Shown: positions 1-60,440 of the stretch, one piece after another | How positions within the stretch are numbered: the first letter of the stretch is position 1 | Layout of the letters: the number at the start of each line of letters is the position of its first letter | NCBI RefSeq assembly: GCF_900660745.1 | Contig: NZ_LR215048.1 | Span: 1 to 64,000 of the forward strand | Length of the DNA stretch: 64,000 bases | Direction of reading: 5' to 3' | Source of the DNA: Haploplasma axanthum | GTDB taxonomy: Bacteria > Bacillota_I > Bacilli_A > Acholeplasmatales > Acholeplasmataceae | The notes under the pieces: model-generated | Seen by the model: the letters and a program-made list of their open reading frames with translations, nothing else | What the model was told of the DNA's origin: nothing | Databases searched by the model: none | Program-made: the position numbers and the translations under genes

Positions 1-66
1 ATTATCGTGCTAATGAAAGTTCTATTTTTAAAATTGGAATCTAAAGTATTTTCTATTTATCCTTAT

Positions 67-452
67 TTATTTCTTTATTAAAAAACTTGCAATATTTATA
101 ATAGGTAAAACATATGGTGGTAATGGGTGATTCATTGTTAACTCAGCCAATTTACTTCGTAAATATGGATATAATATCGCGGTAGCATTATCAATATAAT
201 TAGTATTTTTTTTCCATTCATTAAGTTTAAATTGACCTATTACACTTACTTTAACTTCAAACGGAATAATCTTATTTTGCTGGTTTTTAATAATTTTAAC
301 CTCAAGAAGTACCTCAAAAGAATCATTACTCTATCTATTATTTCGCGTGTAAATTCAGGGTTAATAACAATATCCTCTTCTATATTAGTTTTCACTAGTT
401 TATAGTAAAGTTCTTGATTATATATATTTTCTAATTTTAGCAAACTTGACAT
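67..452 (-). pseudogene. SecB-like chaperone of a toxin-antitoxin-chaperone operon, frameshifted
   Basis: The first part reads MSSLLKLENIYNQ to about position 330. The frame then shifts by one, and the downstream frame continues to a TAA at 67-69. That downstream part has SecB-family features: alternating beta segments (FEVLLEVKI, FEVKVSVIGQF), then ATAILYPYLRSKLAELT and LPPYVLPIINI, which resemble the SecB 'ILFPYLR..I..LT....PP..LPPINF' signature. In known TAC systems a SecB-like chaperone protects the antitoxin. Here it directly follows an MqsA-like antitoxin remnant, which fits that role. One frameshift makes this copy broken unless it is a sequencing error. The family call rests on motifs only. 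Confidence 0.6.
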
Positions 453-978
453 ATATCTTCATTTCCTTTCCCTATCTCGAAAGCAGTCTTGAAGGTAACT
501 TTATTAGTTGGACTATATGTAAATACAGCATTTTGATTTTGAAATACAAGTTTTTTATTTTAGCGACCAATTTACCATTATTGCTTAATTTCAATATTTG
601 TTCAAATGATTCTTTATCATCAACCAATCTCATCAAAATATCATTTGATTTATCTTGAATATATCCATTTTCATATCTTGTTACTGTTTTTTCTCCAAAA
701 CCTAAAAGTTGAGACATTTCTTTTTGACTAATATTATATTTCGATCTTATTTTTCTTATTTCTTCACTTGTTAATAAACCTTTAATTTTTCTATATTCAT
801 CATAAACGATGATATCATTATTAACTTCATTTTTTTTATCATAAATTAATTCATTACATTCAGCACAATAAATTCTAGTAATAGTAACATCGATAATTTC
901 ATCTTTAACTTCATATGTTTTCTTTTCTTTTTCTTTATCACTTCAACATCTTTATCGCATTGTGCAATACATTTTCAT
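437..978 (-). pseudogene. MqsA-like HTH antitoxin, frameshifted at both ends
   Basis: The longest frame contains an N-terminal zinc-type domain with two CxxC-like pairs (KCIAQC in one frame, YCAECN in another), then a helix-turn-helix of the Xre/MqsA kind (SEEIRKIRSKYNISQKEMSQLLGFGEKT, given here in part as NISQKEMSQLLGFGEKT) and VTRYENG. At least one frameshift separates the first Cys pair from the second (around 915-950), and another near 530 breaks the C-terminus, whose alternative frame reads on to a TAA at 437-439. The order toxin, zinc-finger HTH antitoxin, SecB-like chaperone is that of MqsRAC-type TAC systems. Lost function is inferred from the multiple frame breaks. Confidence 0.6.
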
Positions 979-994
979 ATTTTTCTCCTTCATT

Positions 995-1288
995 CTAATG
1001 TAAACTAATAACAATACATTTTCTCTTATCATCTTTCATAGTAATCTTAATGTAAAATTCATAGTTATACTTTGAAAATATACTTCTTAAAAATCCAGAC
1101 TTCGCCTTTATTAGAATCATAATTTAATTCTGGACCATAACAATAATCTCCATGACTTAATCCTCTTATTATCTCATCTCTATCATCATCAAGAAGTGCA
1201 TATTTTCTCCATACCATTTCATTTTATCTCTTAATATGTATATCAAATCATACTCCTTAATATTCCCTATACATTCATCAAGCGTCAA
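995..1288 (-). pseudogene. MqsR-like toxin remnant
   Basis: A first frame starts at a TTG near 1288 (TLDECIGNIKEYDLIYILRD). A second holds LSHGDYCYGPELNYD and KGEVWIFKKYIF, and a third YNYEFYIKITMKDDKRK followed by CIVISLH. Put together these resemble the 'DYxxGPexD..GEvWvFkk...yYIKikl....vcISfH' core of Firmicute MqsR/GinU mRNA interferases. The gene lies first in the operon, directly before the antitoxin remnant, whose ribosome-binding site (AAGGAG) overlaps its end. Two or more frameshifts make it a pseudogene. The MqsR assignment is inference from motif and gene order; a DUF4258-type toxin is an alternative. Confidence 0.5.
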
Positions 1289-1313
1289 TAAAATCATCCC
1301 CCATTCATAAAAA

Positions 1314-1358
1314 GGTATCATTTGATACCATTATAGCGTATTTAGACTAGTTTTGCAA
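1314..1358 (-). promoter_or_regulatory. Promoter and operator of the decayed toxin-antitoxin-chaperone operon
   Basis: On the minus strand a -35 TTGCAA (1353-1358), a 17-nt spacer and a consensus -10 TATAAT (1330-1335) are followed at once by the dyad GGTATCA-N2-TGATACC (1314-1329). A dyad just after the -10 is where an autoregulating antitoxin would bind. The site looks intact although the genes behind it are broken. Confidence 0.6.
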
Positions 1359-1814
1359 GTTCTATAGATTATCTATCATAAATTGTATCAACGACTGAAA
1401 ATGAATTTAGTTTCTTCTTTTGCATCAATAATATCATAGCAAATAGCAATGTAAAATTAACAAAAAAGCGAAAACAACTAAATTAAAATTAATCCCTCAT
1501 CTATTAATTCCAAGTTCAAATTACTTAAAGCAGCAATTTCATTTTCTTTATTCTTATAAAATGTTTTTGTAATATTTGTAATCTCATATATACTTCTCCC
1601 ATTTTATGCTTATCCTTAAAACGATTACTTCTATGTAAATTCTAAAACTATTCTTTTTTATTTTCAACTTCAATTGACATTCTTTTGGCAATTAAAATAT
1701 TTCATGATGCCAAGCATATTCTATTTATAAATTTCTTATTGTAATAGGTATGTTATTTTATCTTTTTATAATTTGAATCTTATGATTACAGTGAATAGAT
1801 TTAAATCAAGCAAA
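1359..1814. other. Non-coding decayed stretch
   Basis: There is no open frame of useful length on either strand. It holds the scrap of an ABC ATPase described separately (1478-1605) and otherwise AT-rich sequence with frequent stops. It looks like eroded coding DNA between the TAC remnant and the broken phosphotransferase. Confidence 0.5.
1478..1605 (-). pseudogene. Scrap of an ABC transporter ATP-binding protein N-terminus
   Basis: After a possible start (MGEVYMRLQ) and a frame change, the minus strand reads ITNITKTFYKNKENEI followed by AALSNLNLELIDEG and then a stop. This matches the usual first strand and loop of an ABC ATPase ('L.nitKtY....ALknvnLei.eGE'). Nothing of the Walker A motif or later is present. 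The identification is tentative because the fragment is about 40 residues long. Confidence 0.3.
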
Positions 1815-2701
1815 CTAAATTGTTTCTTTTGAATACCAACTTGGTATTACATTATTGAAATTATCAAAGTATTCCAAGATATTATTAGCAATTTCAATTG
1901 ATAAAATCGATTTGTTCTTGATCAAACTTATGTGCCCATGGTATATGCGAAATAATTGATTCAGCAGCATATAGCGCTAAGATATTAAAGAATTTTGTTT
2001 ATCCTTATTTTTAAAATAACTATTTATAAACCATTTTCAAAATGAACCTTTCTCTTACATTCCAGATAAAAGGCTTAAATTCTGAATAAATATCTTCAAA
2101 TCCTAATTTATCAAAATCAATTATGTAAATATCATCATTATTAATAATCATATTACCTAAATGATAATCGGTATGTGCTAATACTCTTCTAATATTTTTT
2201 ATTAAATGACGATTATCTTTTATATATTGAATTACTAAATCATACTTTGGAATAATATTTTATATTTTATACTTTCATTTATTTTTCTATCAAGTTTCTT
2301 ATTATATATCTTACTCCATGAATCTTTATACTCTATTTTTGTCTTATGAATTCTTTTTAATATTTCTCCAACTTTATATCCAAACATATATTGCTCATGC
2401 TCAGTATAATTCTTTATGATGCTAGTAGCATCCACTCCATCAATATACTCAAAAACAGTATATACTTTTTCTTCATTAAATAATCCAAAATCAATTACTT
2501 TAGCAATATTAATATCTAGAGTCTTAAGCTTTAGAAGTTCATCATATTGCTTCTTTCGATATTCATATCTTTTAATATCTGATATCCTAACTAGATACTT
2601 TTGGTCAAAAGTATTAGTAACAATATATTTTACATCACTACTAAATCCCTTATTTAATTTTTAATATCTTTAATCCTACCTAACACTTTAATCTTATCCA
2701 T
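1815..2701 (-). pseudogene. Aminoglycoside/choline-kinase-like phosphotransferase, multiply frameshifted
   Basis: The ATG at 2699-2701 (MDKIKVLGRIKDIKN) runs into a stop at about 2658. A one-base shift restores GFSSDVKYIVTNTFDQKYLV, RISDIKRYEY and later VFEYIDGVDATSII. After a further break near 2235 the catalytic loop VLAHTDYHLGNMII and the metal-binding IIDFDKLG are readable, the HxDxxxxN plus DFD signature of the APH fold. The tail ends IPSWYSKETI at 1815. All key elements of an APH-type kinase are visible but in at least three frames, so the gene is dead. The former substrate cannot be told. Confidence 0.7.
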
Positions 2702-2731
2702 GCAATCACCTCACATACTCTTAAAAAGAAA

Positions 2732-2750
2732 AAACACTCTAAAAGTGTTT
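2732..2750 (-). terminator. Intrinsic terminator after the left tRNA-Glu
   Basis: Stem AAACACT / AGTGTTT with a 5-nt loop; on the minus strand it is followed by a T-rich run. It is probably the original terminator of the host tRNA-Ser/tRNA-Glu operon, now separated from its promoter by the prophage. A second short dyad (2771-2790, TAAGGCT/AGCCTTA) lies between it and the tRNA. Confidence 0.65.
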
Positions 2751-2803
2751 ATTTTTCCTTACTATCTCTATAAGGCTAAGACAAGCCTTAATCTATTCCT
2801 AAT

Positions 2804-2879
2804 TGGTGACCCGTACGGGATTCGAACCCGTGAATGCATGCGTGAAAGGCATGTGAGTTAACCGTTTCTCCAACGGGCC
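2804..2879 (-). tRNA. tRNA-Glu(TTC), left copy
   Basis: 76-nt cloverleaf with anticodon loop CTTTCAC (TTC) and encoded CCA. It is identical to the copy at 12456-12531. In the integrated state the sequence upstream of it on the minus strand is phage DNA with only weak promoter-like elements, so this copy is probably poorly expressed. Confidence 0.95.
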
Positions 2880-2881
2880 AA

Positions 2882-2904
2882 TGGCGGAGTGAGAGGGAGT
2901 CGAA
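2882..2904 (-). pseudogene. 3'-end remnant of tRNA-Ser(GCT)
   Basis: 23 bases, from the 3' CCA up to the T arm, identical to 12534-12556. It is the original tRNA-Ser end displaced by phage insertion; the intact gene is at 12534-12624. Confidence 0.85.
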
Positions 2905-2936
2905 TTATTTAACCCTTATAAATAAGATTGAATTAT

Positions 2937-2954
2937 AAACGCATATTAGCGTTT
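2937..2954 (+). terminator. Terminator-like hairpin at the left phage end
   Basis: AAACGC-ATATTA-GCGTTT followed by a T run on the plus strand. In the excised circle it lies just past attP and before the early operon, so it would stop plus-strand read-through into the hairpin region. Confidence 0.6.
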
Positions 2955-2979
2955 TTTTTATTTTATGGGCGAAACATTA

Positions 2980-3110
2980 ATAACATTTTAAAGGGATAAA
3001 TTAAAGGAGCCCATGCCTTAATTTGTCCGTTTAAAGTGTTATTTTATTTAACACTTTGTGTCCCTTTATTCCTACGACGTTAACGCCGGCATTGTTGACG
3101 TCGTAATTGG
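2980..3110. other. Hairpin cluster before the early operon: candidate phage replication origin or packaging signal
   Basis: Nested dyads fill the only large plus-strand gap of the phage. One is a perfect 9-bp stem with 7-nt loop (AAAGTGTTA / TAACACTTT, 3033-3057) inside flanking AAAGGGA (2990-2996) / TCCCTTT (3061-3067). A second is a 12-bp stem (TACGACGTTAAC / GTTGACGTCGTA, one G-U pair, 3073-3105) with a 9-nt loop containing GCCGGC. Filamentous phages carry origins and packaging signals as hairpins in their intergenic region, so this is the natural candidate. The function is inferred. A GACGTC core in the last stem (3097-3102) resembles the dispersed TGACGTCA motif. Confidence 0.5.
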
Positions 3111-3147
3111 AGGGGGAACAAACAACAATTAAAGGGAGGTTCATCAT

Positions 3148-3636
3148 ATGAACAAAGATTTACAAGCAGTATTTAGCAATCGTACAGACGATTGGGCGAC
3201 ACCAGAGATTATATTTGATTATCTGGAACGTTATTGTGAGGTTAAAAAAGACGAATGGTTTGACCCATGTCCTCTTGGTGCATTCGATAAAGGTTATGAC
3301 GGTTTAAAAGTTGATTGGAGTAATCACGAAAATATTTACATCAATCCACCTTATAGCAATATTAAAGGTTTTGTTGAGAAAGCAATTGAAACACATACTA
3401 ACGATAGAACTAAAGCAATTTACTTCTTAATACCTGCAAGAACTGACACAAAGTATTATAAGCTTCTTTTCGAGTATGGTTGTAATTTCGAGTTCATTGA
3501 GGGACGTTTGAAGTTTGGAAAATCAAAACATTCAAGTACTTTTCCTAGCGTATTGGTTCAACTAAATGGCGACGGAGTAATGAGAAATCAAATATATTAT
3601 ATTAGCAAAAATAAATTACATGGGGGCAATAAATAA
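3148..3636 (+). CDS. Phage DNA N6-adenine methyltransferase (Dam family PF05869-like)
   Basis: 162 aa, preceded by a good Shine-Dalgarno (AAAGGGAGG). Visible landmarks are WATPEIIFDYLE near the start, DPCP at residues 39-42, the catalytic INPPYSN (NPPY at 66-69), FLIPARTDTKYY and EGRLKFGKS. These match the phage-type adenine methyltransferases, which transfer methyl from S-adenosylmethionine to N6 of adenine. It is the first gene of the early operon and its stop overlaps the next start (TAATG). It could modify phage DNA, perhaps at the repeated TGACGTCA palindrome, or help evade restriction. The target site is not deducible from sequence. Confidence 0.85.
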   Translation: MNKDLQAVFSNRTDDWATPEIIFDYLERYCEVKKDEWFDPCPLGAFDKGYDGLKVDWSNHENIYINPPYSNIKGFVEKAIETHTNDRTKAIYFLIPARTDTKYYKLLFEYGCNFEFIEGRLKFGKSKHSSTFPSVLVQLNGDGVMRNQIYYISKNKLHGGNK

Positions 3637-3848
3637 TGAAAAAAAGAATTAATAAAAAAGATTTAATGGCGTTTTTAAAAAGCGAAAAAGGCTTTTTAAA
3701 ATTAGATACAATGTGTTGGCGTGCTTTTGTTGAAATTGATGGTGTTGATTACACTGTCAATTTCGATACATATTTAAAACTTGATTTAATCAAATTGAAA
3801 AGCGACTTTATGACTAAATACTATGTACTTAGAAAGGTGGCTAACTAA
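3636..3848 (+). CDS. Small phage protein of unknown function
   Basis: 70 aa, basic N-terminus (MKKRINKKDLMAFLKSEKG). Its start overlaps the methyltransferase stop by one base and its own stop overlaps the next start in the same way, which indicates translational coupling. No membrane segment and no recognised domain. The mid-part (TMCWRAFVEIDGVDYTVNFD) looks like a small beta-sheet fold. Confidence 0.65.
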   Translation: MKKRINKKDLMAFLKSEKGFLKLDTMCWRAFVEIDGVDYTVNFDTYLKLDLIKLKSDFMTKYYVLRKVAN

Positions 3849-4069
3849 TGAAAAAAAGAATGTTGGAATATAAAGGAATGTTATATACTGAGGAAGATTT
3901 ATTTGAAAAACTGGAAGACGATGAAATAATTGAATCATCTGTACTTGTTAATTATTATTACAATGGAAATTTTATAGGTAATGACAATGGATTTTCAACT
4001 AAAGAAATGCTTGATGAGATTATAGAAAGCGGCAATTTAAGTATATCAGAGGTAAAAACTAATGACTAA
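3848..4069 (+). CDS. Small acidic phage protein of unknown function
   Basis: 73 aa; coupled by TAATG to the previous gene and overlapping the next by 8 bases. The centre is acidic (EEDLFEKLEDDEIIESS) and there is no membrane segment. No family recognised. Its place in the early operon suggests a DNA-transaction or regulatory accessory role, but that is only position. Confidence 0.6.
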   Translation: MKKRMLEYKGMLYTEEDLFEKLEDDEIIESSVLVNYYYNGNFIGNDNGFSTKEMLDEIIESGNLSISEVKTND

Positions 4070-4325
4070 AAATGAAATGTTAGAACTCAAAAATGGCGAC
4101 TTTGTGCAAGTAAAAAAAGGAAATAAATGGTACAACGGCATAGCAATTCAACATAAAGAGAATAGTCTTCTTTTTGATGATGACGACTTATTTTTATATG
4201 TTATTTATTTTCCTGATAGTGAAACTAATATGTATGACGCCCATAATTTTTTTAGCCGTAACGAAATTAGACTACCAAATTATGACGTCACAAACAATGA
4301 AACTCTTAAAAAAGTTAAAAGTTAG
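4062..4325 (+). CDS. Small phage protein of unknown function
   Basis: 87 aa, start overlapping the preceding gene. The N-terminus (ELKNGDFVQVKKGNKWYNGI) resembles an SH3/KOW-like barrel opening, a low-confidence impression. The first TGACGTCA octamer (4283-4290) lies in its 3' part, reading as Asp-Val codons GAC GTC. Confidence 0.6.
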   Translation: MTKNEMLELKNGDFVQVKKGNKWYNGIAIQHKENSLLFDDDDLFLYVIYFPDSETNMYDAHNFFSRNEIRLPNYDVTNNETLKKVKS

Positions 4326-4358
4326 TAGATCAATTAGTTGTTAAAGGTGGTAAATAAT

Positions 4359-4532
4359 ATGTATATTTTAGAAAAAAATAATCAATATGTTTCAAATATT
4401 ATCGTAGTTTTTAACAACAAAAAAGCAAAATGTATCTTATCTGATAACGTTAATTTCGCAGTGAAATTCTATGATAAAAAAGATGCAAAAGCACAGGCAA
4501 AACGATTTAAATGTAATCTAAAGGAGTTGTAG
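4359..4532 (+). CDS. Small basic phage protein of unknown function
   Basis: 57 aa if started at the ATG at 4359, which has AAAGGTGG about 8 bases upstream. An in-frame TTG at 4338 lacks such a site. The C-terminus is lysine-rich (KDAKAQAKRFKCNLKEL). No domain recognised. It lies directly before the winged-helix gene. Confidence 0.55.
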   Translation: MYILEKNNQYVSNIIVVFNNKKAKCILSDNVNFAVKFYDKKDAKAQAKRFKCNLKEL

Positions 4533-4535
4533 AAA

Positions 4536-5288
4536 TTGAGTAAGAAAAAAGATTTTATTGTTGAAAAAGCAAGTTTCACAACGATAGAAAATGATATATT
4601 TTTCTATCAAAATAATGGTGAAAAACTATCACTTGAAGCGTGGGGATTGTACGCGTTCATGTTATCACTTCCCGACGCTTGGGACTACACTATTAACGGG
4701 CTGAAATCAGTTGTAAACGCTGGACGTGATAAGGTTTCAAAAACGTTAAAAGAACTTGAAAATGCAGGCTTTTTAGAGCGTCAACAAAGTAATGAAAATG
4801 GGCGTTTTGGTAACATGCAATACAAGATAATTCGTAGACTTCAAACACCGTTGACTGAAAAACCGTTAACGGAAATACCGTCGACGGAAAATCAGATACA
4901 ACTAATTACTAAAGAACTAAAAGATCTTGATAAATTTAAAGATAAAGGGGAAATTTCTTTCCCCCAAACGTTCCACTACCTAACTAAAGAATTGATTAAT
5001 AAAAAATACATCAGTGCTTTAGATTTTGATGTCGAAAAATATAACGATTTGTTTAGTACATTAGATTCAAGATATGGTTATCAAAATGTACTTGAAGTCA
5101 CTAGGTATGCATTAACTTATTCGCTGAAAAATGTTGAACGAATTAATAACAAATTATCGTATTTATCAAGTGCCATTATGAGCGAACTTGTTAAACGTGA
5201 AAAAGCATCATCAAATGAACCTGCTTGGTTAGATGCATACATGAAAGAATTATTTCATAAGGATGAGTTGACTGATGAATATTTTTAG
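4536..5288 (+). CDS. Winged-helix DNA-binding protein, candidate replication initiator
   Basis: 250 aa from a TTG start behind AAAGGAG. Residues 1-110 form a replication-initiator-like winged helix: LSLEAWGLYAFMLSLPD, then SVVNAGRDKVSKTLKELENA and GFLERQQ, with the pattern helix, recognition helix and wing (GRFGNMQYKI). A polar linker with repeated TPLTEKPLTEIP-type residues follows (about 113-130). The rest is alpha-helical (about 140-235), reminiscent of DnaD/DnaB-like phage replisome organisers. No HUH or tyrosine nuclease motif is seen. As the largest early protein it is my best candidate for starting replication; it could instead be a transcription regulator. Confidence 0.6.
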   Translation: MSKKKDFIVEKASFTTIENDIFFYQNNGEKLSLEAWGLYAFMLSLPDAWDYTINGLKSVVNAGRDKVSKTLKELENAGFLERQQSNENGRFGNMQYKIIRRLQTPLTEKPLTEIPSTENQIQLITKELKDLDKFKDKGEISFPQTFHYLTKELINKKYISALDFDVEKYNDLFSTLDSRYGYQNVLEVTRYALTYSLKNVERINNKLSYLSSAIMSELVKREKASSNEPAWLDAYMKELFHKDELTDEYF

Positions 5289-5499
5289 AATGATTTTAGA
5301 TAATGTATTTTCGATTACTAATTGCGAATATAACATTCAAGAAATTGATACTAATAAAATTGACGTCATAACTAATAGTGCAGTCTTTCATTTTGAAAAT
5401 CAAACTTTAATAATGGTTAACGGAAATTATGATTTTGTTAAAGTTAAGCACATTAAAAATATTGTTGAAAGGATGGTTCAAGATTTTGGAGAAAACTAA
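5275..5499 (+). CDS. Small phage protein of unknown function
   Basis: 74 aa, starting inside the end of the winged-helix gene and overlapping the start of the DUF2786-like gene. The pattern is mixed alpha/beta (FHFENQTLIMVNGNYDF) without membrane segments. A TGACGTCA octamer lies at 5361-5368, again as GAC GTC codons. Confidence 0.55.
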   Translation: MNIFRMILDNVFSITNCEYNIQEIDTNKIDVITNSAVFHFENQTLIMVNGNYDFVKVKHIKNIVERMVQDFGEN

Positions 5500-6049
5500 C
5501 GACAACATAAAACAACTTTTAGAAAAAATCAAAGCATTAGCAATTAATGGAGTTGACGGCGAAAAAGAAAATGCGCAACTTCTTCTTAAAAAGTTAATGC
5601 ATAAATATAAAATCACTGATAATGATCTAGAGATTAACAAACGTGATTGGAGAAATGTTACTCTACCACGTTTTAGATTACATAACAAACTTTTCTGGGC
5701 AATCATTCAATCAACATACGATATTACTGCGTATCGTAAAACTTCCAAACGTGACGTCATAAAACTATTTATAACGCAAAGTGAATTAGTTGAGATTATT
5801 GCTAAGTACAATTTTTATGTTTATCACTTCGATGTTGACATTGATGCCTTTGCTATTTCTTTCATTTCTAAAAATAAACTCTTTCCAGTGACTGAACGTG
5901 CTGGAACTCCTAGAGAAATGACAGAGCGTGAATATCAACGCTGGCTTAAAGCTCACGCAATCGAAACATCAAAATATAACTATAATTCTGGGCAACTTGG
6001 TAAGGAACAGTTGCAACTAGATTTTGAAGAAAAGGAGGAATTGCAATGA
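5486..6049 (+). CDS. DUF2786-like phage protein
   Basis: About 187 aa from a TTG at 5486. An ATG at 5429 would overlap the previous gene by more than 70 bases and add residues not expected for the family. The N-terminal helical pair IKQLLEKIKALAINGVDGEK plus AQLLLKKLMHKYKI matches the DUF2786 core ('I.kLLa.A...gt..EA..A..kA..Lm.kygi'). The rest (HNKLFWAIIQSTY, YVYHFDVDIDAFAIS) has no clear match. DUF2786 proteins occur in phages and plasmids with unknown role. The octamer at 5752-5759 is inside. The stop overlaps the next start as ATGA. Confidence 0.65.
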   Translation: MEKTNDNIKQLLEKIKALAINGVDGEKENAQLLLKKLMHKYKITDNDLEINKRDWRNVTLPRFRLHNKLFWAIIQSTYDITAYRKTSKRDVIKLFITQSELVEIIAKYNFYVYHFDVDIDAFAISFISKNKLFPVTERAGTPREMTEREYQRWLKAHAIETSKYNYNSGQLGKEQLQLDFEEKEELQ

Positions 6050-6273
6050 ATGAATTAAAACAGCTTATAAGTGATTTATTGGTTGAATATGACGAGGTTA
6101 GCATGGAGCATAGAGCAACAATGCCACTTGATTATGACTTTCGAAAAAAATGGCTACTTCCTCTTGCTGAAAAAATTAACAATCTAGATATGAAAATCGA
6201 GGTTATAAAAATATCTTCTAAAATCATTCATGAAAGCAATGCACTAGATGCTTATGACGACGAAGAGGATTAA
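6046..6273 (+). CDS. Small acidic phage protein of unknown function
   Basis: 75 aa, ATGA overlap with the gene before and a strong Shine-Dalgarno (AAGGAGG) inside the upstream coding end. Predicted all-helical with acidic C-terminus (NALDAYDDEED). No family recognised. Confidence 0.6.
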   Translation: MNELKQLISDLLVEYDEVSMEHRATMPLDYDFRKKWLLPLAEKINNLDMKIEVIKISSKIIHESNALDAYDDEED

Positions 6274-6287
6274 GGAGGTGATTAAAA

Positions 6288-6659
6288 ATGAAATCAACTA
6301 AACAAGCATTTATAACTAAATTGATAGATTATACGTTAGACTTTTTTAAAGTCAAAACTGAGGATCAAGAGCACATCATAAGTTTTAAAGGTGAGCATGT
6401 CATAATCTCACTGAAAACAAAAGAAACAATACATGAACTTGCTAAGATTGCTTTTGACTTCGAGGAAGATGACGGACTTGATTTTCTAGCATCTGTAATT
6501 AATGAATTAGCATTATCAGATGATGCGATTAAAGATGCTAACGATGTATTAACAGCATTTTATCAAGAAGATTATCAAGAAGATTATAATAATCTGCAAG
6601 AGGAAATCGAAAGAGATATTCAACAAGAAATGATTGATAATAATGTTGAGCCTGATTAA
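6288..6659 (+). CDS. Acidic phage protein of unknown function
   Basis: 123 aa with an excellent ribosome-binding site (AAGGAGGTG). It is strongly acidic, with a C-terminal tandem QEDYQEDY and no membrane segment. It is the last gene before the structural block. In filamentous phages this spot is often the single-stranded-DNA-binding protein, but no OB-fold signature is evident, so I leave the function open. Confidence 0.6.
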   Translation: MKSTKQAFITKLIDYTLDFFKVKTEDQEHIISFKGEHVIISLKTKETIHELAKIAFDFEEDDGLDFLASVINELALSDDAIKDANDVLTAFYQEDYQEDYNNLQEEIERDIQQEMIDNNVEPD

Positions 6660-6758
6660 TAAAAATGATAATAACATGGGGGAAAAAGATAGAGTTGAAA
6701 GACTTCTTCTATTCTTCCATTTTTTTATAAAAAACAAAATAAAAAGGAGAAATAAGAA

Positions 6759-8354
6759 ATGAAAAAATTAAAATTATTATTGGTTGCACTATTAGTTGCA
6801 ACATCAAGCCTACTTATGACGTCAAAAGTTAGTGCAGCATCTAAGACTGTTACATTGACATCTAATAAGTTTAGTCAAAGTGATTTAATTTTAGAGCATC
6901 AAGGTGGTGGCATTTTTACAGTAATCATTGATCAAGAAGCATGGTTCCCAGTTTTAGCAAGTCCATGGGATGACAATGTATCAATTGGTTTAACTAGTAA
7001 CGACTTTAAAAAAATTAAAGTGATATTGAATGGAACTGAATATATTAAAGATTTTGGTTCAGGCTTCACTTTCGATTTTGAACCATTAGCAAACGAACAA
7101 TGGGAATTATCAACAAATATTAGTGGAACATTTACAAGATATACTATTCCAGCATATGACTTAAAAATACAAGTTGCTGATACTTTTGATATCAGAAAGC
7201 CAGCATCTTCAGGTAAAGATATAATTATTAATAATGTTGAAAAGCCATATACTTTAGAGCAATTAAAAGCAAATGCTTTATTTAAAGTTACAGACGAATA
7301 TGATGGCGATATTACTGATAAAGCGCAAATTATTAGAGATACTTACACACCAAATAAATCAGTTCCAGGAACATTTGAAATTGAATGGCAAACAACAAAC
7401 TCTGGTGGACTTTCTACTAATTATATTTTGAAAGTTTTAAATCAAGATTTTGATGCACCAGATATTGATGGACCAGATTTAGAATACTTTTCATATACGC
7501 AAGAATTAACTCTTGCTGACATCGCTAATAAGTTTACAGCAATTGATAATATTGATGGAACTGTTCCAGTAACTATTTTGCAACATGATTATGTTCAAGG
7601 TGCAGTTGGAACATATGAATTCACAATGCAAGCCGTAGACAAAGCAGGTAATAGAAATACTCATTATTATAAAGTTATTATCCAAGATGATGTACTGCCA
7701 GTAATTACAGATGAAAACAACGGGAAAATACAAATCAATTGGAAAGATGACGTCAATACTCAAACATTACTTTTAGGACTTTCTGCAACTGATGCAGTTG
7801 ATGGAAATCTAACAAGTTCGATTAAAATTGTTGAAAATAATATAGTAAACAAACTAGGTAAATACATTGTTAAATATGAAGTATCTGATGAAGCAGGAAA
7901 TATTGCTGAGTATCAAAGAGAATATGAAGTTATTACTTTAGAAAGTCCCAAATATTGGATTAGCCAAAATATTTTATCAGTTGAAGACATCAACAAAATG
8001 ACAGTAGATCAACTTGCTAGAATATATGCGAATTATGAAAATATTGAAATGAAGTCTTTCGAAGTAATTACTAATGAATATTTAAACAATGAAGAAACTC
8101 CAGGACAATATTTATTGTCAATGAAAATCGTTGACACTAATAACGAAACTCATGAAATAAATAGAATGATTAGAGTTTTTAATGAAAGTGAGTTGCCTAA
8201 GGAAAATGAAGAACCTAAAGCAAAAACAATATGGCAAAAAATAGCGGACTTCTTCATCTGGATTTTCAACAATATAATTCTTCCTGTTTGGAAAGTTATA
8301 GTGTGGATTTGGGAACATACGATAGGTGCAATTTTCAAATTAATAACTAAATAA
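6759..8354 (+). CDS. Secreted multi-domain phage protein, candidate adsorption (pIII-like) protein
   Basis: 531 aa. It has a typical signal peptide (MKKLKLLLVALLVATSSLL, cleavage after VSAA) and, from about residue 150 on, Ig-like DUF5011-type repeats, recognisable by AIDNIDGTVPV, AVDKAGN, ATDAVDGNLTSS and VSDEAGNIAEY. The C-terminus is a tryptophan-rich hydrophobic segment (FFIWIFNNIILPVWKVIVWI) ending in short basic residues. A signal peptide, extracellular repeats and a C-terminal membrane anchor before the assembly ATPase is the layout of a filamentous-phage attachment protein. Two octamers (6817, 7748) lie in it. It is followed 27 bases later by another secreted protein. Confidence 0.75.
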   Translation: MKKLKLLLVALLVATSSLLMTSKVSAASKTVTLTSNKFSQSDLILEHQGGGIFTVIIDQEAWFPVLASPWDDNVSIGLTSNDFKKIKVILNGTEYIKDFGSGFTFDFEPLANEQWELSTNISGTFTRYTIPAYDLKIQVADTFDIRKPASSGKDIIINNVEKPYTLEQLKANALFKVTDEYDGDITDKAQIIRDTYTPNKSVPGTFEIEWQTTNSGGLSTNYILKVLNQDFDAPDIDGPDLEYFSYTQELTLADIANKFTAIDNIDGTVPVTILQHDYVQGAVGTYEFTMQAVDKAGNRNTHYYKVIIQDDVLPVITDENNGKIQINWKDDVNTQTLLLGLSATDAVDGNLTSSIKIVENNIVNKLGKYIVKYEVSDEAGNIAEYQREYEVITLESPKYWISQNILSVEDINKMTVDQLARIYANYENIEMKSFEVITNEYLNNEETPGQYLLSMKIVDTNNETHEINRMIRVFNESELPKENEEPKAKTIWQKIADFFIWIFNNIILPVWKVIVWIWEHTIGAIFKLITK

Positions 8355-8381
8355 TAACAATCACAAAAAGGATGTGATAAA

Positions 8382-9545
8382 GTGATTAAAAAAATACTAA
8401 TAATTATATTTATCGGGGTTGCAAGTTTTCTTCTTGCAACTCCAAAACTATATGCAGCGGAAACTGCAAAGCCTTCGCCAAGTATTGAAATAACTGATAT
8501 AACTAGAAATCAAAATACAATAACAATACAAACAAATGAAACTGATTTAATTACACATGCAGTTGTTGAATACGTGTTTCTAGAAAACACACAACGAATA
8601 TCAATGCTTAAAACTTATGACGTCAAAAATAACACCTTTACAATCGAAAGTAAAATAACTGATTTAAAGATTTGGCAACTTAAAAAGATACGAAAAGAAA
8701 CTTCAACACTTCATATGACTAGTGGAAAAAACACGATAGGAACAATTGAAAATGTGGAACGAAGAAACATATCAGAGATTGAAACAGTCGCATCTAACAT
8801 CGTTGATACTGGCTTATTTTTAGATAAGAATACTGGTAAACACATTGGACCAGGTAGATTAGATGTTAAATTAAAATATTTTGAGTTTTATTTCAAGTTT
8901 GAAAAAACACATGACAAAGTCATATCAATTGATGTTAACTATGTTTTTGGTGATTTAAATTATGATGAAACAAGTCTAATAAATACTGAAAATATATCCG
9001 AGCGTATTTTTCCTGATGGCGTTGAAATTGAAGGTTACGAAATAATATGGGACGCTATAAATTATTCTAAAAATACATTTAAAAAACTAGCGGTACGCGG
9101 ATTAGATAACAATTTCATTGCTTCTATCGACGCAAACTATGTAACAAGAGTTTTCCCGATTAAAAATGCTGCATCTAACATTGAGCGACGTGGTAGAGGC
9201 TCTCGTGCAAGTTTCGCATATGGTGTATCTAACTTCGCTATCATTAAAATACAATATATGGTTGATGGCGTTTTCTTTGAAGATGACGTCATAAATCCAC
9301 CAGTTGATCCTGTTGAGCCTGTGACTCCTGAAGATACATTAGGTTGGCTTCAAGAATTGATAGCAAAAATTAAAGAAATAATCCAAAAATTAAAAGATGC
9401 TTGGGGTAAATATTCAACAATTGTATTGACTGTTATATATATTCTTATTGTTTATATTTGTTATAGAATTCTCAAAGCATGTTGGGGATTGATTCAACTG
9501 CCATTTAAGTTATTAAAAGTTTTATTTATACCAAAGAAAAAATAG
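8382..9545 (+). CDS. Secreted, C-terminally anchored phage protein
   Basis: 387 aa from a GTG preceded by AAAGGATGTG. Signal peptide MIKKILIIIFIGVASFLLA with cleavage near LYAA. The middle is beta-rich without a recognised domain. Near the C-terminus there is a proline-rich hinge (NPPVDPVEPVTP), an amphipathic helix (LIAKIKEIIQKLKDAWGKY), a membrane helix (IVLTVIYILIVYICYRIL) and a basic end (KLLKVLFIPKKK). It is a plausible second minor coat protein of pIII or pVI type. The last residues resemble the end of the next, 53-aa protein. Two octamers (8618, 9284) lie inside. Confidence 0.65.
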   Translation: MIKKILIIIFIGVASFLLATPKLYAAETAKPSPSIEITDITRNQNTITIQTNETDLITHAVVEYVFLENTQRISMLKTYDVKNNTFTIESKITDLKIWQLKKIRKETSTLHMTSGKNTIGTIENVERRNISEIETVASNIVDTGLFLDKNTGKHIGPGRLDVKLKYFEFYFKFEKTHDKVISIDVNYVFGDLNYDETSLINTENISERIFPDGVEIEGYEIIWDAINYSKNTFKKLAVRGLDNNFIASIDANYVTRVFPIKNAASNIERRGRGSRASFAYGVSNFAIIKIQYMVDGVFFEDDVINPPVDPVEPVTPEDTLGWLQELIAKIKEIIQKLKDAWGKYSTIVLTVIYILIVYICYRILKACWGLIQLPFKLLKVLFIPKKK

Positions 9546-9556
9546 GAGGAATTACA

Positions 9557-9718
9557 ATGATTACAGATTTTTTTATGTTTATATTTTCACTACCAAAAAA
9601 GGGGTGGAAGATTTTAGTTAAAGTTGGTAAAGGAATTAAAAAAGGATTTCAAGTTTTATTTGTTCCAAAGAAAAAAACTAAAAAACGTGACGTTAAAAAG
9701 CAAAGTGGTAAAAGATGA
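9557..9718 (+). CDS. Small, very basic phage protein (53 aa)
   Basis: ATG at 9557 with AGGAGGA seven bases before it; TGA overlaps the ATPase start (ATGA at 9715). The protein begins with a hydrophobic stretch (ITDFFMFIFSLP) and ends in a highly basic tail (VPKKKTKKRDVKKQ). LFVPKKK repeats the end of the preceding protein (LFIPKKK). Its size and position next to the assembly ATPase make it a coat-protein or DNA-packaging candidate. It lacks the long central membrane helix and signal peptide of classical pVIII, so this is only a suggestion. Confidence 0.6.
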   Translation: MITDFFMFIFSLPKKGWKILVKVGKGIKKGFQVLFVPKKKTKKRDVKKQSGKR

Positions 9719-10671
9719 TAAAACACGATTGGCGTTACAATTTGGCACACTTCCCAGATGCGTTATTCCTAGCATTTGGAAAATTGCTAAAATTGATTTT
9801 ATTTTCATTTAATAACATCTTAAGGAAGTGGCAAAGTTTTCTAGACGTCTGGAACAATAGCGACGTTTGGAGGTTAGCGAGATACTTAACTTTTCCACTT
9901 CATTGGATTTGGATACTTGCATATAAAGAAAGCAAAAAGAAAAAGTATGATAGCAACCTCTTCGATATCCCGGGCTTACAAATAATCAGTGGAAATACTG
10001 GAGCGGGTAAAACGTCTCTTGTATATGAAATTATTGAACGTTATAGAATACTTTTCGGAAAGCCTTGGTATATCAATTCGGACTTTGAAAAGCCACGATA
10101 TAACGAGCCATTACAAGCGTATATTAGATATCATAGATATATGGAGTTTGGAAACGTCTGGAATGATTTTGAAACAAAAATACAACTAAATAAAAATCTA
10201 TATGGTGGCTATGTTCTAGATGAGTTTACACGAATATTCGACCACCGCCAAAATCAAACAACGGAGTATTTAAGTAAGTTTGTTCCATTTAGGGATTACA
10301 CTGTATTGATTAGAAAAAACATTGAGCGCATCATTGGAATAACGCAATTAGATAGATTAGATATACATTTAATGTATCTAGTCAAAATGTGGCATAAGCC
10401 AAGAATTGACATAGGATTTGACTATGAAGATTGGATGTTAAAGTCTGGGCTATTTAGATTTAAAATAAAGGGTTGGTATATCGACTCTTACACTATCAAC
10501 ACTAGCGACCAATCAAATATGCTTGTTCCGTTTAAATCGTGGTATTTAAAAGCCGAATACGCTGACTTTGAATATTATGATACTTATGCTTATTCGGACG
10601 CTTATAATCATGTTCCGTTAGATATGCCGAACATGAAATACAATCAAGGAGGATTAAGAAATGCAAATTAA
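9715..10671 (+). CDS. Zot/pI-like phage assembly ATPase
   Basis: 318 aa. A hydrophobic N-terminus (membrane-associating helices around residues 13-35 and 52-70) precedes a P-loop domain with Walker A GNTGAGKTS at 93-101 and Walker B YVLDE at 166-170, followed by an FVPFRDY segment. Filamentous-phage pI/Zot proteins are inner-membrane ATPases that drive virion extrusion. Usually the membrane helix follows the ATPase domain, whereas here it precedes it. It is coupled to the small basic gene by ATGA and overlaps the next gene. Single-membrane hosts need no outer-membrane pIV, and none is seen. Confidence 0.8.
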   Translation: MIKHDWRYNLAHFPDALFLAFGKLLKLILFSFNNILRKWQSFLDVWNNSDVWRLARYLTFPLHWIWILAYKESKKKKYDSNLFDIPGLQIISGNTGAGKTSLVYEIIERYRILFGKPWYINSDFEKPRYNEPLQAYIRYHRYMEFGNVWNDFETKIQLNKNLYGGYVLDEFTRIFDHRQNQTTEYLSKFVPFRDYTVLIRKNIERIIGITQLDRLDIHLMYLVKMWHKPRIDIGFDYEDWMLKSGLFRFKIKGWYIDSYTINTSDQSNMLVPFKSWYLKAEYADFEYYDTYAYSDAYNHVPLDMPNMKYNQGGLRNAN

Positions 10672-10996
10672 TGACGTCATAAATGTTGCTAAAATAGTTT
10701 TAATTATTGGAGGTACAATTTCAATAACTGCATTTTTCTTATTATCAATTTTATTCATGCCTAGTTTCTTTCAAAAAATGGTTAACTTAAAAAGAGCTGA
10801 GCACATCATGCAAGAAAACTTAGAGATTGTAGAGAAAGCAACATTCTTTCAAACTAATCAAGACTTTAATAAAATCATAGATGAGCAAATGGATACGATT
10901 AGAAAAAATGCTGCTAAACTAAAATCACTACATGCCGAAATAGATCAATTAGGAAAAGATTTATCGAATAAGAAAAAAGGGCAACAAAAATCCTAA
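10661..10996 (+). CDS. Membrane protein with coiled-coil tail
   Basis: 111 aa, overlapping the ATPase end by 11 bases. One strong membrane helix (about residues 9-33, VAKIVLIIGGTISITAFFLL) is followed by a long helical, probably coiled-coil region with basic end (NKKKGQQKS). It is the last gene of the structural block and could be an assembly partner of the ATPase, comparable in place to pXI. An octamer starts 11 bases into the gene (10672). Confidence 0.65.
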   Translation: MQINDVINVAKIVLIIGGTISITAFFLLSILFMPSFFQKMVNLKRAEHIMQENLEIVEKATFFQTNQDFNKIIDEQMDTIRKNAAKLKSLHAEIDQLGKDLSNKKKGQQKS

Positions 10997-11002
10997 TATA
11001 AT

Positions 11003-11022
11003 ACATATACTTTAGTATATGT
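11003..11022. other. Perfect hairpin after the structural genes
   Basis: ACATATAC-TTTA-GTATATGT. It lies shortly after the last structural gene and before the terminator. It may be part of transcript 3'-end processing or a second single-strand structure in the phage genome. Confidence 0.5.
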
Positions 11023-11062
11023 TTATATAAGTTTATATATCGGCGGCAATCGACGTGATATG

Positions 11063-11108
11063 ACGAGTTGAAATTTCATTTATTGAATATCTATCAACTC
11101 GTTTTTTA
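11063..11108 (+). terminator. Intrinsic terminator of the phage structural operon
   Basis: Stem ACGAGTTGA / TCAACTCGT with a 22-nt loop, followed by a run of T. It separates the structural operon from the integrase. Confidence 0.75.
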
Positions 11109-11198
11109 TTTGAGCGTTATAATAATAAGACTGGGATTTTTTTAGGGATTTGCTACCTCATAAAATATTAAAAAACAATACATGAGGAGATTAACAAA

Positions 11199-12083
11199 AT
11201 GAAAATTAAAGATGTTTTTAAAGACTATTTAGACTATGCAGAGTTTTATTTAGAGTTTGATACTTGGAGAACTTACAAAAGAGATTTAAAACTAATTACA
11301 AAGGTTTTAGACGTCATGCATATTTATGATACAACACAATTAGATGCAAATATCATTGACAAGCTTAATAGATATTTAAAAGGAAATACTGAAAAGAAAA
11401 ACAGCAAAATAAATGATACAGTGTCAACTTTTATATCTTCACTTAATCATTCAAATATTAGCACTAAACATTTTAAAATGATAAGATTAAAAAACGATAC
11501 AATCGGTTATAAGCCACTTCCCGAAAATGAGTTGATACTTATGTTAGATTATATAGAAAAACTCAATACAAGCGAAACTAACAATCTTTCATGGGTTGCT
11601 AGCATATACATTATGTTAGACACTGGGGCAAGAATTAATGAAGTGACTAACATATTAACAAAAAATGTTGACGTCAGTGGTAGAAGAATATTATTAGAGG
11701 AAACTAAAAACGGAAAAATGCGTATAGTTCCTTTTGGGGATTTATCTGCTGATATAATCAGTAAAATATATGATCCTAATCATTCACATTTATTATGGAA
11801 TTATTACAGCAATATAAAACTATCAAGGGTATCACTTCACAAGTTTTTAAAACGTTTATCTGATAAATTAAATCTTACATCTGGGAACATTACATCACAT
11901 AGATTTAGAAAGACATTTGCAACTAGATTATTAAAAATGAAATGCCCTATTACAACAATTCAAAAACTGCTAGGACATTCAAGTATTTCAATAACTATGA
12001 GATATTTAGAAATAGACGATTACATGTTAGAAAAAGATTATATCGAACATTATAGTTATAATGCATTAAAAAAAGCGGACTAA
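11199..12083 (+). CDS. Phage tyrosine integrase
   Basis: 294 aa with AGGAG before the ATG. The N-terminal SAM-like core-binding domain covers about residues 1-95. The catalytic domain shows R145 (DTGARINEV), H234-x-x-R237 (SHRFRKTF), H260 (LGHSS) and the nucleophile Y269 (ITMRYLEI), i.e. the R-H-R-H-Y set of the family. It would recombine attP with the tRNA-Ser/tRNA-Glu locus. The stop overlaps the bidirectional terminator shared with the convergent repressor. Two GACGTC sites lie in it (11310; octamer 11669). Confidence 0.92.
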   Translation: MKIKDVFKDYLDYAEFYLEFDTWRTYKRDLKLITKVLDVMHIYDTTQLDANIIDKLNRYLKGNTEKKNSKINDTVSTFISSLNHSNISTKHFKMIRLKNDTIGYKPLPENELILMLDYIEKLNTSETNNLSWVASIYIMLDTGARINEVTNILTKNVDVSGRRILLEETKNGKMRIVPFGDLSADIISKIYDPNHSHLLWNYYSNIKLSRVSLHKFLKRLSDKLNLTSGNITSHRFRKTFATRLLKMKCPITTIQKLLGHSSISITMRYLEIDDYMLEKDYIEHYSYNALKKAD

Positions 12084-12094
12084 AAATCCGCTTT
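12072..12094. terminator. Bidirectional terminator between integrase and repressor
   Basis: AAAGCGGA / TCCGCTTT with a 7-nt loop and A/T runs on both sides. It overlaps the stop codons of the two convergent genes. Confidence 0.75.
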
Positions 12095-12337
12095 CTTCTT
12101 TGTTATATTTTTTAATTGTTCAGAGTATTCTTTGTGTATTTTTTCAAATTGGATTAACTCATCGACTGTTACATCTAACAATACCGCCATTTCGATTGCA
12201 CGTTCTAAACTTGGATTAATCTTACTTCTTTCATAGTCAGATATGATAGTTCTATCAATTTTAAGCCTGTTTGCAAGTTCTTGCTGAGTTAGTCCCTTTT
12301 TTTGTCTAAACTCTTTAAGATTTAATTTAATCGCCAT
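12080..12337 (-). CDS. Xre-family (cI-like) phage repressor
   Basis: 85 aa from the ATG at 12335-12337, which has AAAGGTG at proper distance; a further ATG upstream (12361) lies before that site. The protein is an HTH_3 domain (LKEFRQKKGLTQQELANRL, then KIDRTIISDYERSKINPS) and a short helical tail. It is convergent with the integrase, and two GTGGA-N6-TCCAC dyads lie directly before it. It is the probable lysogeny repressor. Too short for an autocleavage domain. Confidence 0.85.
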   Translation of the reverse strand: MAIKLNLKEFRQKKGLTQQELANRLKIDRTIISDYERSKINPSLERAIEMAVLLDVTVDELIQFEKIHKEYSEQLKNITKKKADF

Positions 12338-12361
12338 TTTAACACACCTTTCTATTGACAT

Positions 12362-12405
12362 GTGGACTATAATCCACTATAATTCATTTGTGGACTATGT
12401 TCCAC
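12362..12405. promoter_or_regulatory. Paired repressor operators
   Basis: Two dyads GTGGA-N6-TCCAC at 12362-12377 and 12390-12405, 28 bp centre to centre, lie immediately upstream of the repressor gene. I did not find the same dyad elsewhere in the phage. They probably mediate autoregulation. Confidence 0.7.
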
Positions 12406-12421
12406 TATCAAAATTAAAAAA

Positions 12422-12438
12422 ATATGTGTTAAACATAT
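12422..12438 (-). terminator. Phage-supplied terminator after the right tRNA-Glu
   Basis: ATATGT / ACATAT with a 5-nt loop and a T run on the minus strand. It follows the right tRNA-Glu and stops tRNA transcription before the phage repressor. Its sequence differs from the terminator at 2732-2750. Confidence 0.6.
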
Positions 12439-12450
12439 CTTATTTATTTA

Positions 12451-12556
12451 CTAATTGGTGACCCGTACGGGATTCGAACCCGTGAATGCATGCGTGAAAG
12501 GCATGTGAGTTAACCGTTTCTCCAACGGGCCAATGGCGGAGTGAGAGGGAGTCGAA
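12451..12556. repeat. attR: 106-bp direct repeat
   Basis: Identical to 2799-2904. Here the tRNA-Ser end is continuous with the rest of the gene, so phage insertion reconstituted an intact tRNA-Ser followed by a full tRNA-Glu. Confidence 0.9.
12456..12531 (-). tRNA. tRNA-Glu(TTC), right copy
   Basis: 76 nt, anticodon loop CTTTCAC, CCA encoded. It is two bases downstream of tRNA-Ser and behind its promoter, so it is the copy most likely expressed. It came with the phage if the left copy is the original. Confidence 0.95.

Positions 12557-58914: not shown

Positions 58915-60440
<1,526 letters not shown>

Follow-up and report, generated by a model that had tools for sequence, protein, structure and literature searches.

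The first 64,000 nucleotides of contig NZ_LR215048.1 of Haploplasma axanthum (assembly GCF_900660745.1), the stretch which we call the window, contain a plasmavirus-like prophage of 9,652 bp with nine perfect copies of the palindromic octamer TGACGTCA. We conclude, on the basis of sequence comparisons, that these octamers appear to be a selected set of sites private to the phage, most simply explained as docking sites for a protein. More precisely, they may be distributed docking sites on a double-stranded DNA (dsDNA) plasmavirus genome for a dimeric, sequence-specific DNA-binding protein encoded by the phage, a reading to which we give a probability of roughly 0.4.

The nine copies are located where a first-pass annotation, made from the sequence alone, had placed them. 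They are listed here with the three other sites that share the GACGTC core; L036 is a related prophage from another genus.

4283-4290: TGACGTCA, gene 4062-4325, encodes Asp-Val
5361-5368: TGACGTCA, gene 5275-5499, encodes Asp-Val
5752-5759: TGACGTCA, DUF2786-like gene, within KRDVI; the same codons are GACGTC in L036
6817-6824: TGACGTCA, gene 6759-8354; sole copy in phase ACG|TCA
7748-7755: TGACGTCA, gene 6759-8354, encodes Asp-Val; counterpart in L036 is not GACGTC
8618-8625: TGACGTCA, gene 8382-9545, encodes Asp-Val; counterpart in L036 is not GACGTC
9284-9291: TGACGTCA, gene 8382-9545, within DDVIN; the same codons are GACGTC in L036
10672-10679: TGACGTCA, codons 5-6 of gene 10661-10996
11669-11676: TGACGTCA, integrase gene; the GACGTC of L036 is two codons off
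3096-3103: variant TGACGTCG, right arm of the intergenic hairpin preceding the early operon
9843-9850: variant AGACGTCT, ATPase gene
11309-11316: variant AGACGTCA, integrase gene

The over-representation of the octamer in the phage is confirmed. It is the most over-represented 8-mer of the 9,652-bp phage circle, with 9 copies against 0.075 expected from a Markov model of order 1 (0.12 with order 2) and a Poisson tail of about 1.6e-14. Dinucleotide shuffles of the whole window contain 0.29 copies on average and 3 at most (n=100). The count of control palindromes proposed in the first-pass annotation also sets the octamer apart: the 95 other eight-base palindromes with four G/C add up to 6 copies in the phage circle, none with more than 2. 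GACGTC itself is found 12 times in the phage, and no other 6-bp palindrome with at least four G/C is found more than once. The whole octamer counts, not the core alone, because 9 of these 12 cores are flanked by T and A.

The rest of the window has a single further copy, at 59265, within 16S rRNA, as had been noted. The whole host genome contains 37 octamers, 32 of them inside mapped prophage copies. The other 5 correspond to chance level (5.07 expected, a value extrapolated from the 51.5 kb of the window outside the prophage), so the octamer does not show the enrichment in the host chromosome of a host-wide motif such as Chi, an uptake sequence or KOPS.

All nine octamers are found inside genes, where eight are read in phase GAC|GTC and the ninth in ACG|TCA, in agreement with the first description. 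This shared phase is largely a coding constraint: the third phase has the stop codon TGA, and ACG|TCA requires a previous codon ending in TG. As eight of the nine octamers encode Asp-Val, they might be a by-product of amino acid or codon preference, with Asp-Val written as GAC GTC. We give this explanation almost no credence. GAC GTC is used at 10 of the 20 Asp-Val pairs of the phage, while codon usage predicts 0.86; shuffles of synonymous codons, which preserve proteins and codon usage, yield a mean of 0.33 octamers and a maximum of 3 (n=2000) against the 9 observed, and the flanking T and A are enriched as well. The same shuffles in L036 (n=1000) give 0.46 GACGTC (maximum 3) against 8, and 0.07 octamers (maximum 2) against 3. 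The shuffles in both phages, together with the different positions of their sites, sustain the earlier impression that the sites are selected.

Related prophages were searched through their ATPase. It is matched in 9 of 88 genomes from the family, 13 of 160 from the order and 11 of 395 from the class, which are overlapping sets that also contain the genome of the window. We have compared 17 prophage intervals, with bounds drawn by eye from clusters of open reading frames (ORFs), near-identical copies counted once and the truncated L033 omitted. The octamer array is found in two of them, the window phage and L036. The latter contains 10 GACGTC against 0.56 expected, 5 of them octamers, and the remaining 15 prophages have 0 or 1 octamer each. 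Four further loci from the order and one from the class came from a profile search, and none of them has an octamer array; no relative was confirmed in viral_contigs with the ATPase, the envelope protein or small alignments of both as queries.

Six gene pairs are common to the window phage and L036. Of the nine window GACGTC sites compared in these genes, two (in KRDVI and DDVIN) have GACGTC at identical codons in L036, another has it two codons away, and the remaining six do not correspond to GACGTC. The same motif thus appears to be kept mostly at other places in two diverged phages, the best sign that the DNA word itself may be functional. The motif is also found in genes that are closer to those of other lineages. 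For example, gene 10661-10996 has an octamer, and its 53%-identical homolog in the prophage L034 has no GACGTC.

A different palindrome, CATCGATG, is enriched in L034, L038 and L039, three prophages found in one genome of a third genus, with 5, 4 and 8 copies against 0.13-0.25 expected. It also exceeds synonymous shuffles (4, 4 and 6 copies against about 0.3, attained in 0 of 1000 shuffles), in a test which omitted one duplicated gene of L039. The three prophages are related, so their enrichment counts as one observation. The excess is moreover relative, because their host genome, counted with its prophages, has 59 copies in 1.6 Mb, and a control word has 8. In these prophages CATCGATG is frequently extended to GACATCGA or TCGATGTC.

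The octamers had been described as evenly spread around the phage circle, with gaps of 390-1390 bp. This range holds between neighbouring sites in the window; over the attachment (att) site the gap reaches 2266 bp if the variant at 3096 is not included. Evenness of the nine sites is mild by the sum of squared gaps (p = 0.0175) and is not apparent from the largest gap of 2266 bp (p = 0.16). With the addition of 3096 (10 sites), or with all 12 GACGTC, p falls to about 5e-5 (1 in 20,000 draws), both sets having been picked after the data were seen. The variant reported in a hairpin is indeed there, as TGACGTCG at 3096-3103. The hairpin itself, at about 3073-3105, is strong (3060-3120 folds at -25.9 kcal/mol) and may serve as an origin or a leader element.

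The nature of the prophage bears on what the sites may do. Its main features are the following.

2880-12531, + strand: plasmavirus-like prophage unit, 9,652 bp, flanked by tRNA-Glu copies at 2807-2879 and 12459-12531
3148-3636, + strand: Dam-family (PF05869) DNA methyltransferase; homolog not found in L036
about 5489-6049, + strand: DUF2786/phrog_421-like protein, start uncertain (PHROG 421, E = 6.7e-7); candidate reader of the octamer
8382-9545, + strand: envelope-type protein; match in 2 of 88 family genomes, that of the window and that of L036
9715-10671, + strand: ATPase, homologous to ORF3 of Plasmavirus L2
12080-12361, - strand: Cro/C1-type repressor (HTH_3), sole leftward gene assigned; rival reader

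Plasmavirus L2 is a dsDNA phage of Acholeplasma that buds and has no capsid. The first-pass annotation had taken the prophage for an inovirus, which it is not. The ATPase matches that of L2 (25% identity over 69% of the query, E = 5e-9, tblastn), there is an integrase (PF00589, E = 5.3e-30), and the insertion at tRNA-Glu and the gene order, similar to that of L2, also point to a plasmavirus. A replication-initiation-like protein is present as well (PHROG match). The element is therefore a plasmavirus-like provirus, and by analogy with L2 the phage genome would be dsDNA. L2 (Plasmaviridae) and related proviruses have an ATPase and an integrase homologous to those of the element, its genes in a similar order, integration in a tRNA gene and related envelope-type proteins; L2 differs in having zero GACGTC and no extreme palindrome.

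These results leave little room for the suggestion that the octamers are self-pairing points of a single-stranded virion genome, which we regard as very improbable even though the motif is self-complementary. Plasmaviruses have supercoiled dsDNA in electron-dense cores without a regular capsid, and an enveloped budding virion is known for L2 (ICTV profile). Furthermore, octamers in folded sequence are unpaired to an extent of 0.33, against 0.39 for other 8-mers with four G/C (RNA parameters, 208-base windows, 150 control 8-mers), so they are not unusually unpaired.

The proposal that the octamer is the target of the phage adenine methyltransferase fares no better: L036 has the array, and no methyltransferase was found there by blastp or by a Pfam scan of nine proteins, which did not extend to three large ATPase and envelope-type proteins. 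A broader form of this idea, in which an enzyme acts at GACGTC and the site is favoured as protected or useful when modified, ranks third among the explanations of the array and seems rather improbable to us. The window phage does encode a Dam-family methyltransferase, and both array phages are poor in GATC (9 against 29.5 expected in the window phage, 7 against 23.2 in L036), so restriction pressure is likely. In fact, GATC is below expectation in all 17 plasmavirus-like prophages, which suggests restriction at GATC; the weakest deficit is found in L044 (40 against 49.5).

Such pressure may be able to enrich palindromes, as suggested by Vibrio Queuovirinae phages. Like the window phage, these have a palindrome, GCCWGGC, far above expectation and scattered through the genome: L086, L087, L213, L214 and L215 contain 37-50 copies per 50 kb against about 3 expected, and 76-86% of their CCWGG are within GCCWGGC. 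They differ in that other CCWGG are depleted and the pattern is independent of the DUF2786-like gene, which suggests modification or restriction as its cause; it may reflect a deazaguanine modification protecting GGC. The pattern is not seen in L211, L212 and L216. Unlike the Vibrio case, GACGTC outside the octamers is not depleted in the window phage (3 against about 0.6 expected). The chance-level frequency of the octamer in the host also speaks against a modification site, as does the search of the hosts for C5 methyltransferases (PF00145, the one family searched there), with no match in the window's host and one in genome G009.

The closest rival for the job of the array is a set of transcription roadblocks: a phage repressor, that of 12080-12361 or another, would halt transcription at octamers in the rightward prophage genes, in the manner of stoperators. 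We consider this unlikely, although less so than a modification site. The octamers are located in rightward genes and none is found in the leftward repressor gene, but this octamer-free stretch is too short to be informative. Mycobacteriophages L5 and Bxb1 also have many short phage-specific sites throughout the genome, whose motif differs between relatives (PMC6550527), as GACGTC and CATCGATG differ here. Stoperators are mostly away from promoters, asymmetric and mostly oriented with transcription. Here the nine octamers are all intragenic, and each is a perfect 8-bp palindrome, so that the orientation characteristic of stoperators is absent. As for the protein, the window repressor is closer to that of L039 (45%), which has the other palindrome, than to that of L036 (36%), which has the same one, and the recognition helices, compared by eye, do not follow the motif. 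The repressor would therefore be a poorer candidate for the reader. An unspaced 8-bp site is also short for a Cro/C1 dimer.

We return to the preferred reading, docking sites for a phage-encoded protein. We infer that some protein binds the octamer; among the functions proposed in the first-pass annotation, a protein-binding array for replication or segregation is of the class that we favour as possible. The protein is probably encoded by the phage. As a dimer it would dock at the octamers scattered over the dsDNA genome, and the docked protein would then mark phage DNA and help to condense it for budding, a job which we propose because plasmaviruses lack a regular capsid and which remains doubtful. 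We know of no explanation of how plasmaviruses, without a regular capsid, select their own DNA for budding. A selected, phage-private site present about once per kilobase would be a concrete handle on this choice.

The product of the gene at about 5489-6049 is a tentative candidate for the reader, on balance unlikely to be the right one. This is the only early gene common to both array phages (blastp, 46% identity to L036), and a profile search did not find it in the other 15 prophages. The array is thus present in 2 of 2 prophages with the gene and in 0 of 15 without it. Its score against Pfam DUF2786 is 16.1 bits, below the curated cut-off of 23.9. The predicted structure (mean pLDDT 79.8, pTM 0.55) has two N-terminal helices followed by a beta-alpha-beta-beta-alpha part, whose beta hairpin, YRKTSKRDVI for the window phage and YKKTRKRDVI for L036, includes basic residues; our guess from the model is that this hairpin may read DNA. 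The best fold comparison (VIA Z 7.0, rmsd 3.2, 72 residues) is within the common range, and among sequences of solved structures there is a weak TAL-effector match (E = 1.5e-4, no single stretch passing). A literature search on DUF2786 gave no paper with the protein in its title or abstract. The MetJ met box and the CRE octamer are also unspaced 8-bp palindromes with the same GACGTC core, and neither a MetJ-like nor a bZIP family was matched by the phage proteins scanned with Pfam. If the DUF2786-like protein is the reader, this would be a lead to the function of a family found in unrelated phages; if a repressor is, mollicute phages would have their own version of stoperators, palindromic and located in genes. 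The complete scheme, in which the genome is tagged with evenly spread octamers, the DUF2786-like protein separates phage from host DNA and condenses it, and relatives use other private palindromes, is a long shot.

We have also compared the DUF2786-like gene with palindromes in other phages, using half-sites of three or four bases, either adjacent or separated by one base. The set left out copies, near-copies and fragments (L001-L004, L048-L049, L053, L057, L059-L065); the window entered as the phage unit and L036 as a trimmed phage interval. At a threshold of 1e-6, an extreme palindrome is found in 8 of 61 chunks from 30 loci with the gene, in 1 of 31 chunks from 18 relatives without it (L039) and in 0 of 92 control chunks. 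The controls were those of 120 random viral contigs of at least 5 kb that lack the gene, and most are shorter than the gene-bearing loci. Controls of matched length, 61 contigs taken at random plus 6 selected phages that lack the gene, were therefore compared in 8-kb windows: the 30 gene loci and the 67 controls give 4 and 0 at 1e-6, 4 and 1 at 1e-5, and 5 and 3 at 1e-4. A general link between the gene and palindromes therefore fails: apart from the two array phages, and with the Vibrio phages excluded, loci with the gene are not richer in palindromes than controls of the same length. Palindrome arrays are rare in this sample, since none of the 92 viral contigs or 67 control windows has one at 1e-6.

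Several results weigh against the preferred reading or its candidate reader. L2 itself lacks such an array, which cannot then be a general packaging need. The sites of L036 are not visibly even, with gaps of 71-2268 bp judged by eye. L217, which has no DUF2786-like gene, contains 7 GACGTC against 1.1 expected (p = 1.7e-4) and 0 octamers. The co-occurrence of gene and array in two of two phages may reflect one shared ancestry. The four loci found at 1e-6 in 8-kb windows comprise the two array phages and a pair of Vibrio phages, and the Vibrio palindrome is also present in all three close sisters examined (L213-L215), where the gene was not found. For the candidate reader, a Foldseek search gave no similar solved structure at E <= 0.001.

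Pseudomonas phage KPP23 (L067) also has an unspaced 8-bp palindrome, GTCCGGAC, with 16 copies in the 40 kb fetched, and a DUF2786-like gene. Many of its copies, unlike those of the window phage, are found in promoter-like DNA and not in genes, often between TTGAC-like and ATAATA-like boxes, so that by eye GTCCGGAC looks like a promoter operator. We have rejected it as support for the gene link, and likewise CTGCAG in L052, which by eye resembles codon usage. A literature search on over-represented or evenly spaced phage palindromes gave no title or abstract start about such an array. Other palindromes observed are CCGNCGG in L082 (genome_contigs, CALMNM010000128.1, with a DUF2786-like gene), with 24 copies against 3.4, 16 of them within the first 2.6 kb, and CCCGGG in L056 (35 against 10).

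Two observations concern the arrangement of the prophages. The contig L043 (G004:C2, 9,492 bp) has the same prophage genes, with the same ORF lengths, as the chromosomal L042 (G004:C1), and is perhaps an extrachromosomal form of the prophage. At the far end of the window's own contig, the prophage is present in tandem as two full copies and a cut third. Positions 1-12556 of the window duplicate this far end (G000:C1:1855475-1883099) with 99.7% identity, all differences being indels; the two ends of the contig therefore probably overlap.

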